From Spirochaetia bacterium (GTDB taxonomy: Bacteria; Spirochaetota; Leptospiria; Leptospirales; Leptonemataceae), in assembly GCA_009885105.1 (NCBI GenBank), contig VFLI01000029.1:1-64000 (forward strand): a DNA stretch of 64,000 nucleotides. The letters are read 5' to 3'. Of the stretch, positions 51,563 to 59,619 are shown piece after piece. The position numbers were made by a program, and so were the translations under genes. Below the pieces are notes generated by a model. It saw only the letters and a list, made by a program, of their open reading frames with translations, was not told where the DNA came from and ran no database searches. Within the stretch, counting starts at the first letter, position 1. Every line of letters begins with the position of its first letter.

Positions 51563-51826
51563 ATGCTGTTGAAATCCGCTTTCTGGGATTATCCTGAACT
51601 CTGCGATGAAAAGAATCTTGCAGATTTTTTGCGCAAGAATGAAGAGAATTCTGTTCGATACAACTGGGCGGTCTCCCGGCTTCTGGAAGGCGCCCGAGTG
51701 AAAGATATTCTCGTTTTCCTTTCCTGGGGGGAAATTGAATCCGCACTTTCTATCGTCAAAATTTCGGAAGAACAGAGACGCAAATGGATTCGTCTTCTGG
51801 AAGTGTATGCCGCCCAGCGAAAATAG
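51563..51826 (+). CDS. Small DUF6922-like antitoxin partner of AbiEii
   Basis: An 87-residue protein, FWDYPELCDEKNLADFLRKN then VRYNWAVSRLLEGARVKDILVFL, with a helical C-terminal half (SEEQRRKWIRLLEVYAA). The F-W-D start, ERVL-like helix and late W-I/L pattern match small proteins of the DUF6922 type often encoded before AbiEii nucleotidyltransferases. Its stop overlaps the start of the next gene by 20 nt, so the pair is translationally coupled, as in type IV toxin-antitoxin modules. Confidence 0.6.
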   Translation: MLLKSAFWDYPELCDEKNLADFLRKNEENSVRYNWAVSRLLEGARVKDILVFLSWGEIESALSIVKISEEQRRKWIRLLEVYAAQRK

Positions 51827-52481
51827 AAATTGTTATGCCTCGCCGGGGATGCGCACAGTGCTTGTGCGTCTAGCGCGCACAAAAATCTTGGATTCTTTCT
51901 TCTTAACCGGCGGAACGGCTCTTTCCGTTTTCTATCTCGAGCATCGGATTTCTGAGGACCTTGATTTCTTTTCGGTTGATACTGTTGATCTGGGTGAAAT
52001 TGATTTCTTGATTAAAAGAGCAGGTTTTGATTCGCTGCAATCCGTAAAATCTTCAAAGGGTTTTATACGCTGCCTAATCGATGGTGTGAAAGTTGATCTT
52101 GTCCACGATCCTCTTTCATTGCCGGGAAACAGAACGCCTGTAGCAATCGATGATACCTCTGTCGCCGTCGATTTTATCGAAAATATTTTTTCTAATAAGC
52201 TTACGACTCTGGTGAGTCGGACCGAACCAAAAGATTTCATTGATTTTTTTTTCTTAAACTCCGCCTGCCCCGATTTTACACTTGATCGTCTCTACACATT
52301 GGCGGGAAAAAAGGATGCGATTTTTGACGATCCTGCCAGCGCCGCTTATCGTATCGAAGAAAACCTGAATGCAATTCTCAAACTGGGCATGCTTCCGACT
52401 CTGCTTAAAATAATAGATGTTAAAGAATTTGAAGCATTCTTTCGCGGAATAATCGCGGCGATTTATAGACGGCAGAATTAA
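51807..52481 (+). CDS. AbiEii/AbiGii-family nucleotidyltransferase toxin
   Basis: A 224-residue protein from ATG 51807 (MPPSENRNCYASPGMRTVLV). The nucleotidyltransferase core is FFLTGGTALSVFYLEHRISEDLDFFSVD, with the GG and D-x-D of AbiEii toxins, then ISNKLTTLVSRTEPKDFIDFFFL. These enzymes modify tRNA 3' ends and stop translation in phage-infected cells. The upstream small gene overlaps it and is the likely antitoxin. The longer start at 51735 would lie inside that gene and is rejected. Confidence 0.85.
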   Translation: MPPSENRNCYASPGMRTVLVRLARTKILDSFFLTGGTALSVFYLEHRISEDLDFFSVDTVDLGEIDFLIKRAGFDSLQSVKSSKGFIRCLIDGVKVDLVHDPLSLPGNRTPVAIDDTSVAVDFIENIFSNKLTTLVSRTEPKDFIDFFFLNSACPDFTLDRLYTLAGKKDAIFDDPASAAYRIEENLNAILKLGMLPTLLKIIDVKEFEAFFRGIIAAIYRRQN

Positions 52482-54309: not shown

Positions 54310-54410
54310 GACGATCCTTTATCGTCTAATATATTAACAAAAAAATGACTGGCGCGGGAATATCGGCCGGTCCGGTATAGACCTCGGCAGGCAGGCCGAG
54401 AGGATGTATT
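54310..54410 (+). promoter_or_regulatory. Leader of the caspase-like gene with two hairpins
   Basis: A perfect 6-bp hairpin GACGAT-CCTTT-ATCGTC lies at 54310-54326. A second, CTCGGC-AGGCAG-GCCGAG, lies at 54383-54400 and its 3' arm abuts the Shine-Dalgarno GAGAGGA (54398-54404), which is 7 nt before the ATG. The second stem could limit translation. No riboswitch class was recognised; the 180-nt gap between the divergent genes holds both promoters. Confidence 0.4.
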
Positions 54411-55895
54411 ATGATTTTTACTAATAAACTAAAGTTTTCTTTCCGACCGGCAGCCGCAGTCTTTTTCTCTCTGGCTGCTCTCGCCATTTTCAACATACAG
54501 GGCCAGAGTCCGCAGATGTCCGTCTCTCCTCAGGCAATTCGCATTCCCGCCGGAATGGCGGTTCTCACCCGAGAAGTCCAGCCCCTGCCGGGCCGGGTTC
54601 GGATTGGCAATTTGAAGGCCGTTCTGATCGGCGCGCCGATTGACGGTGACAGAGGCAGCTGGACTCTTTCCGAAATTGCGAATCTTCGCAAGGCCGCCGC
54701 CGTGCTTCGCGCGAACAATGTCAACGTGCGCGAATTTTACACGCCGCAGAACGACTGGGCCGCGATCAAAGAAGCTTCGCGCGGCGCTCAGTTTCTTCTC
54801 TATCGCGGACACGGCGTGTACGACGGCAGCCAGCCGCCCAGGAAGGTCGGAGGGTTCGCGCTCAAGAGCGGATTTTTTTCCGGCGATCAGATCAAGTCCG
54901 ATCTTCAGCTCGCCCCCGGAGCGATAATCATGCTCTACGGATGTTTTACGGCCGGGAATTCCGGTTTCGACATGGGTCTGATCGACGAGCGGGAGGCCAA
55001 ACGTCGTGTCGCCATGTACTCTCTGCCATTCATGGAAATGCGCGCCTCCGGCTACTACGCCAACTGGTTCGGCGACGCTTTCGCAAGTTTTCTCTCTTCG
55101 CTTTTTGACGGCAAGACTCTCGGTGAATCGTATAAATCGTACAATGACTTCAATGCCCAGAGTGTCAGCTATGACGTGCATCCGCAGGCCTCGGGGAAGA
55201 AAATGTGGGTCGATCATGACAACTGGGATCATAAAATCGTGTACAACAACGCTTTTGTGGGAGAGCCGGAGAAAAATCTGCTGCAGCTTTTTGGCGGCCA
55301 AACTCCGCAGCCAATTCCCGAGCCGGTCCCGACGCCCAATCCGCAGCCTGGCCCGCAGCCAAATCCAAATCCTTCTCCGCAGAATGATCCCGTATCTTCC
55401 GGCGACTGCATTTCAGCCGGAGAATCGCGTCTGCTTTCTCTCATCATGGATTATCGCCGGTCACGCGGCCTGCGGGCCGTGCCGGTCTCGCGCTCGCTCA
55501 GCAGAGTCGCCCGCATGCATGCCCGTGATCTATCGGAGAATCCTCCTCGCGGCGAATGCAATATGCACAGCTGGTCCAGCAGCACAAAATGGTCGGCCTG
55601 CTGCTACACGCCCAACCACGCAAGATCTCAGTGCATGTGGAATAAACCCCGCGAACTCAGCCGTTATCCCGGCAACGGATATGAAATATCTTACGGCGGT
55701 TCAATGCATGCCGATCCGGAAGGCGCGCTGCATGGCTGGCAGGGTTCAACCGGACACAACAGTGTGATCATCAATGCCGGAATCTGGTCATCGCATCCAT
55801 GGGGAGCGATTGGAGCCGGCATCGTCGGCGGTTATGCCGTCGTCTGGTTTGGAGAAGAAACGGATCCGGAGGGACCGGCGCAGGCCTGCCGCTGA
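54411..55895 (+). CDS. Secreted caspase-like domain fused to a CAP/SCP domain
   Basis: A 494-residue secreted protein. After a signal peptide (VFFSLAALAIFNIQG) comes a clan CD (caspase/gingipain-like) domain at about residues 60-300: VLIGAPIDGDRGSW, catalytic-type His in FLLYRGHGVYDG (His134) and Cys in IIMLYGCFTAGNSG (Cys178). A Pro/Asn-rich linker of about 35 residues follows (about 295-330), then a CAP/SCP domain (about 340-485) with ESRLLSLIMDYRRSRGLRAV, MHARDLSE and GSTGHNSVIINAGIWSS. This combination is unusual. It has no neighbour of similar function and starts its own unit. Protease activity is inferred from the H/C pair only. Confidence 0.82.
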   Translation: MIFTNKLKFSFRPAAAVFFSLAALAIFNIQGQSPQMSVSPQAIRIPAGMAVLTREVQPLPGRVRIGNLKAVLIGAPIDGDRGSWTLSEIANLRKAAAVLRANNVNVREFYTPQNDWAAIKEASRGAQFLLYRGHGVYDGSQPPRKVGGFALKSGFFSGDQIKSDLQLAPGAIIMLYGCFTAGNSGFDMGLIDEREAKRRVAMYSLPFMEMRASGYYANWFGDAFASFLSSLFDGKTLGESYKSYNDFNAQSVSYDVHPQASGKKMWVDHDNWDHKIVYNNAFVGEPEKNLLQLFGGQTPQPIPEPVPTPNPQPGPQPNPNPSPQNDPVSSGDCISAGESRLLSLIMDYRRSRGLRAVPVSRSLSRVARMHARDLSENPPRGECNMHSWSSSTKWSACCYTPNHARSQCMWNKPRELSRYPGNGYEISYGGSMHADPEGALHGWQGSTGHNSVIINAGIWSSHPWGAIGAGIVGGYAVVWFGEETDPEGPAQACR

Positions 55896-59118: not shown

Positions 59119-59619
59119 ATGCCATCTATCGAACTTTATCAGGGCGACATCACACAGCTTGCCGTGGATGCAATCGTCAACGCCGCCAACAATTCGCTTC
59201 TGGGAGGCGGCGGAGTCGACGGAGCGATCCATAGAGCGGCCGGACCGGATCTTCTGGTCGAATGCCGCGCACTGAAAGGATGCGAAACCGGGCAGGCAAA
59301 AATCACAAAGGGGCACCGGTTAAAAGCGAAACACGTGATCCACACTGTGGGGCCGGTCTGGAGCGGCGGATCCCGGAATGAGGACGAGCTTCTTTCGCTG
59401 TGCTACAAAAATTCTCTGCAGCTTGCGGCACAAAATGGTCTGCATTCGATCGCCTTCCCGTCGATCAGCACAGGAGTGTACGGATTTCCCGTCGAACGCG
59501 CTGCGCCCATCGCCGTGAGGGAAATCCGGAATTTCGGGGAATCCTCTCTGGAGAAAGCGATCTTTGTCTGCTTTGATTCTGCGACGATGGATGTTTACAG
59601 AAAGATTCTGAAACTATAG
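59119..59619 (+). CDS. Macrodomain O-acetyl-ADP-ribose deacetylase-like protein
   Basis: A 166-residue single macrodomain of the MacroD type that removes ADP-ribose adducts or deacetylates O-acetyl-ADP-ribose. Motifs: [31 protein letters not shown] near the N-terminus, with the G-x-G-V-D-x-A-I-H loop and catalytic Asp, then [20 protein letters not shown] and [18 protein letters not shown]. It is monocistronic, with no visible ADP-ribosyltransferase partner in the window. Confidence 0.92.

Follow-up and report, generated by a model that had tools for sequence, protein, structure and literature searches.

What does a bacterial protein do when it carries a caspase-like peptidase domain and a CAP domain in one exported chain? 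The question is raised by a gene in the window, the 64,000-nucleotide stretch analyzed here (positions 1 to 64,000 of contig VFLI01000029.1 from a Spirochaetia bacterium). CAP proteins occur commonly, and little is understood about what those of bacteria do. The gene encodes, within one open reading frame, a signal peptide, a peptidase domain, a Pro-rich linker, and a CAP domain, in that order. Our best explanation for the whole, which we hold with a probability of roughly 0.55, is that the product is an exported clan CD protease docked by an exchangeable CAP tail. A preliminary description of the locus had placed a signal peptide, a Pro-rich linker, and a CAP domain in a single chain. Our analysis bears this out: the reading frame is intact, hydropathy marks the N-terminus, 14 of the 37 linker residues are Pro, and the CAP domain scores above the curated Pfam cut-off. 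Beyond that description, the fusion turned out to belong to a shuffling family that joins its modules in several combinations, and a second caspase-fold family carries CAP domains of this subfamily as well.

Fold and candidate catalytic residues of the peptidase domain

Fifteen relatives of the peptidase domain were recovered from genomes of Spirochaetota, Bacteroidota, and Chloroflexota and aligned (alignment A1). H134, C178, D78, W219, and further residues are invariant across all 15. A full-length model predicted from the single sequence was unusable (predicted local distance difference test score, pLDDT, of 33); the model used here is that of the peptidase domain, built by AlphaFold2 with A1 (pLDDT 88.2; predicted template modeling score, pTM, 0.86). 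In the numbering of this model, a strand formed by residues 93–97 leads to H99, which corresponds to H134, and a strand formed by residues 137–141 leads to C143, which corresponds to C178. This predicted layout, in which each member of the dyad directly follows a core strand and a Gly precedes the His, is the clan CD pattern. A Foldseek search of the PDB with the model returned mostly clan CD structures: SAVED-CHAT (4.0e-5), Craspase TPR-CHAT (3.4e-4), caspase-9 (1.9e-3), Bacteroides C11 (2.8e-3), Kgp (3.8e-3), and RgpB (5.2e-3), as well as separase and metacaspase. The accompanying template modeling scores were modest, about 0.3–0.4 by query, so that the evidence for the fold holds at the level of the clan and not of the family. 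Profile comparison with hhalign placed the GHG motif of A1 over that of a second caspase-like family, designated A3 (E = 1.2e-5), and aligned both the GHG and the Cys with those of C25 (E = 1.8e-4, with a probability of 48 and three C25 sequences used). The preliminary description had named H134 and C178 as a clan CD dyad, a proposal that stands; it had also asked for a protease fold with the two residues close to one another, and the modeled fold and strand-level placement fit clan CD.

The best fold matches are to CHAT proteins, which lends some weight to a different reading, namely that the domain is no longer a protease and serves as a caspase-fold binding or scaffold domain. Clan CD pseudo-orthocaspases devoid of catalytic residues are known (PMC6426788). 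However, the dyad is retained in every relative from the three phyla, and C178 is the sole Cys of the mature chain outside the CAP domain. We consider a non-proteolytic role quite improbable, and the N-terminal domain is best described, from its model, as a caspase-fold (clan CD) cysteine peptidase domain.

In gingipain R, the S1 pocket is formed by Asp163 in the first helix and the two Gly beside the catalytic His, with Trp284 serving as its lid (PMC4357240). By analogy, a pocket composed of D78, the GHG motif, and W219 suggests that the enzyme would accept Arg or Lys at P1.

Membership in C14 or C25, as raised in the preliminary description, was not borne out. A Pfam scan of the window protein with E values up to 1 gave no match in the N-terminal half, C25 (PF01364) included, and a search of the source genome for C25 found none. 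Weak C25 matches were obtained for 7 of the 15 relatives (best E = 0.0022). C14 matched neither the window protein nor any relative, and CHAT gave one weak match among the 15. From these comparisons, the peptidase is read as belonging to a clan CD family that is unlisted in Pfam and lies nearest to C25. The window protein shares with C25 gingipains the clan CD fold and similarly placed candidates for the acidic S1 residue and the Trp lid, and its GHG and the Cys after the next strand may correspond to theirs, as the hhalign comparison suggests; it has no large N-terminal prodomain and ends in a CAP domain. Caspase-like proteins of the CHAT and C14 types provide the best fold matches (SAVED-CHAT, Craspase, and caspases) and the same dyad order, His then Cys; unlike them, the window protein begins with a signal peptide. 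With a dyad that is invariant in three phyla and no Pfam entry matched above cut-off, the family is also a candidate for a new one within clan CD, distinct from gingipains, clostripains, and metacaspases, which are well studied.

The CAP domain and its cysteines

The C-terminal domain scores 29.2 bits against PF00188, for which the curated cut-off is 21.1. Like the bacterial CAP proteins BB0689 and YkwD, it exceeds this cut-off and belongs to a group in which H386, E425, and mostly H449, which we take to be the classical His and Glu residues of the CAP cavity, are conserved. It differs in belonging to a Cys-rich subfamily (CNxHSW...CCYT...CMWxKP) whose members are usually stand-alone exported proteins of ~190–230 residues, whereas here the domain forms the tail of a peptidase. 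The profile of an alignment of 19 such CAP sequences (A2) matches Borrelia BB0689 (chain 4d53; E = 0.0098), by this measure the closest CAP protein of solved structure. BB0689 reportedly fails to bind the ligands usual for CAP proteins (PMC11784157). The preliminary description had linked CAP domains to virulence or host interaction; this role found no support in the source genome, which is partly complete and has no virulence context.

Six of the seven Cys in the mature chain lie in the CAP domain, and their pattern of loss across A2 is informative. Within the trimmed ends of the alignment, C333 is found wherever C493 is and is missing wherever C493 is missing; in L026 and L006, the first of these two Cys lies at or just beyond the edge. 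One sequence (L036) lacks C383 and C398 and keeps C397 and C408; two others (L119 and L120) lack C397 and C408 and keep C383 and C398. This covariation predicts three disulfides, C333/C493, C383/C398, and C397/C408, with C178 remaining as the only free thiol. The three pairs are likely, and they would agree with export. Four of the CAP matches (L045, L046, L047, and L052) contain one internal stop codon, either TAA or TGA.

Exchange of C-terminal modules among relatives

We next compared the tails that follow the peptidase domain; fusion counts cover 393 sampled genomes of the window's phylum. L020 ends in thioredoxin and PA14 domains (PA14, 8e-24), L021 and its kin in a LamG-type tail (Laminin_G_3, 4e-22), and L029 in a BACON-like tail (1e-4), while L002, L010, L011, L015, and L016 carry ankyrin-like repeats. 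A 652-residue homologue from another genome of the window's phylum (G153) has the same length and tail as L021, the protein from Spirochaetes bacterium GWF1_49_6. In L003 (308 residues), little remains past the peptidase domain. The ankyrin-like tail is also found at the end of CAP proteins from the same taxonomic family (L113, L114, and L117; E from 1e-11 to 6e-9), which indicates that peptidases and CAP proteins share tails.

These tails bear on the possibility that the CAP domain regulates the peptidase, either by autoinhibition or by sensing a ligand whose binding turns proteolysis on. Legumain is inhibited by its C-terminal domain (PMC4357240), and the window protein has just a variable stretch of ~35 residues ahead of its core in place of a large gingipain-like prodomain. 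However, the long Pro-rich linker favors independent domains, and close relatives have tails that are unrelated or, as in L003, nearly absent. We consider such regulation unlikely.

The A2-type CAP domain occurs behind a different peptidase as well. In L004, from another genome of the same taxonomic family (G018), it follows a member of A3, a family in which an HG...C dyad is likewise conserved. L004 resembles the window protein in its signal peptide, its clan CD-type dyad (SHG...DQC), and a C-terminal CAP domain of the same subfamily that is 57% identical; it differs in that its peptidase has metacaspase-like motifs and in having a repeat-rich spacer where the window protein has the Pro-rich linker. 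In a phylogenetic tree, the CAP domains of the two peptidase-CAP proteins group together with moderate support (87/85). The two proteins may descend from one fusion followed by a swap of the peptidase, or from two fusions; the pairing would be either recurrent or one that survived the swap.

L004 also bears on whether the fusion is an artefact of assembly or gene calling that joined two genes. Among the 393 genomes of the phylum, the exact combination of A1 peptidase and CAP domain was found in the source genome only, a draft in 115 contigs, which speaks for an artefact. Against it stand the single open frame without a stop, the clean linker, the well-formed domains on either side, and the parallel fusion in L004. 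An artefact is highly improbable.

Literature searches, which left subscription papers mostly uncovered, yielded no description of a peptidase-CAP fusion. It is tempting to speculate that the proteins belong to an undescribed exported clan CD system whose tails, CAP and ankyrin among them, are exchangeable and come from a pool shared by two or more caspase-fold families. We put this forward tentatively, as a possibility that falls well short of even odds. If true, the system would supply modular proteases, acting at the surface or outside the cell, that are directed to different ligands.

Several further observations concern the relatives. The apparent peptidase match of L034 (Saprospiraceae) was rejected, its CAP part alone being real. 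A search of phage records gave no match, and a search of plasmids gave CAP relatives only. A single-domain A1 member (L121, 3-899) is located at one end of a viral contig from IMG/VR, where it could be a prophage edge or a phage gene; by eye, the adjoining genes look like terminase and portal genes. The source genome encodes a second exported caspase-like protein, a 406-residue member of A3 (L078, G000:C75:26850-27530), whose repeat-rich C-terminal part is similar to repeats found in L070, L073, and L074.

Export, linker, and a proposed docking mechanism

Residues 13–27 have a mean hydropathy of 2.2, and hydropathy analysis of the whole protein found no membrane-spanning segment beyond the N-terminus. 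From its sequence, the hydrophobic N-terminus is plausibly a Sec signal peptide. Neither Lys nor Arg occurs in residues 289–339, which cover the linker and the first part of the CAP domain; after K288, the next Lys or Arg is R340.

This feature touches on a reading in which the peptidase, once exported, cleaves its own chain to free the C-terminal module, here the CAP domain, as has been proposed for polymorphic toxins. The N-terminal position of the peptidase matches the polarity described for processing peptidases (PMC3482391). However, an Arg/Lys-directed enzyme could not cut between residues 289 and 339, so the chain would be shielded and self-release of the CAP domain is disfavored. Unlike polymorphic toxins with a releasing peptidase, the protein ends in a CAP domain, and no immunity gene or toxin-system neighbor was recognized around the gene; the tails of its relatives resemble binding modules rather than toxins. 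Release of the CAP domain is fairly unlikely.

In the docking mechanism that we favor, the protein would be exported through Sec, processed by signal peptidase, and folded outside the cytoplasm, with the CAP domain locked by its three disulfides. The N-terminal domain would cleave as a cysteine endopeptidase through H134 and C178, and an S1 pocket with D78 and W219 would take Arg or Lys as in gingipain R. Borne on a flexible linker that the enzyme itself would be unable to cut, the CAP tail would dock the peptidase close to its substrate or to a ligand of the envelope or matrix; in the relatives, tails of the LamG, PA14, BACON-like, or ankyrin type may serve likewise. On this reading, the protein would reside in the envelope or outside the cell and is probably Arg/Lys-directed. 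If the tail does dock the enzyme, substrates of the protease would reveal what the CAP domain binds.

Several considerations weigh against this mechanism. Missing Lys and Arg make a weak argument, as Pro-rich linkers lack these residues anyway. Assignment of the S1 pocket follows from sequence position and strand order, and the activity itself is inferred. The exact fusion is confined to one genome, a draft that is 78% complete. Finally, conserved neighbors that might hint at a substrate were looked for and none were found.

Gene, genomic context, and coordinates

The source genome is a 3.6 Mb draft. Both genes that flank the fusion gene lie on the opposite strand and are unrelated to it, from which the fusion gene appears to be transcribed alone. 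Promoter and terminator scans at the locus gave signals no better than those in shuffled sequence. When the neighborhoods of the fusion gene and its relatives were compared, none was conserved. An adjacent short-chain dehydrogenase gene, with counterparts near L026 and L128, was rejected as a linked gene: these genes are generic, with at most 30% identity.

Table 1 Features of the peptidase-CAP fusion gene and its product
Feature	Position in window	Strand	Basis
Exported clan CD peptidase-CAP fusion gene (predicted)	54411..55895	+	Intact open reading frame; ATG start; 494 residues; stop codon at 55893
Ribosome-binding-like GAGAGG	54398..54403	+	7 nucleotides upstream of ATG; read from sequence
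Signal peptide (predicted), residues ~1–31, cleavage site approximate	54411..54503	+	Hydropathy
Clan CD (caspase-fold) peptidase domain (predicted), residues 36–298, folded core from ~62	54516..55304	+	Alignment A1, model, Foldseek, hhalign
D78, candidate S1 acidic residue, loop β1-α1	54642..54644	+	Invariant; compared with RgpB Asp163
H134, candidate catalytic His (YRGHG)	54810..54812	+	Invariant; aligned with GHG of C25 and A3
C178, candidate nucleophile (LYGCF)	54942..54944	+	Invariant; aligned with GGC Cys of C25
W219, candidate S1 lid, directly after next core strand	55065..55067	+	Invariant; compared with RgpB Trp284
Pro-rich linker, residues 296–332, no Lys/Arg	55296..55406	+	Composition
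CAP domain, residues 333–494, six covarying Cys	55407..55892	+	PF00188 E = 1.8e-6, alignment A2, Cys pattern
H386, invariant CAP His	55566..55568	+	Alignment A2
E425, invariant CAP Glu	55683..55685	+	Alignment A2
H449, CAP His in 17 of 19 relatives	55755..55757	+	Alignment A2

Two other open reading frames on the forward strand of the window were judged by eye from their sequences. One (51735-52481) resembles an AbiEii-type nucleotidyltransferase, and the other (59119-59619) appears macrodomain-like, of the ADP-ribose type.
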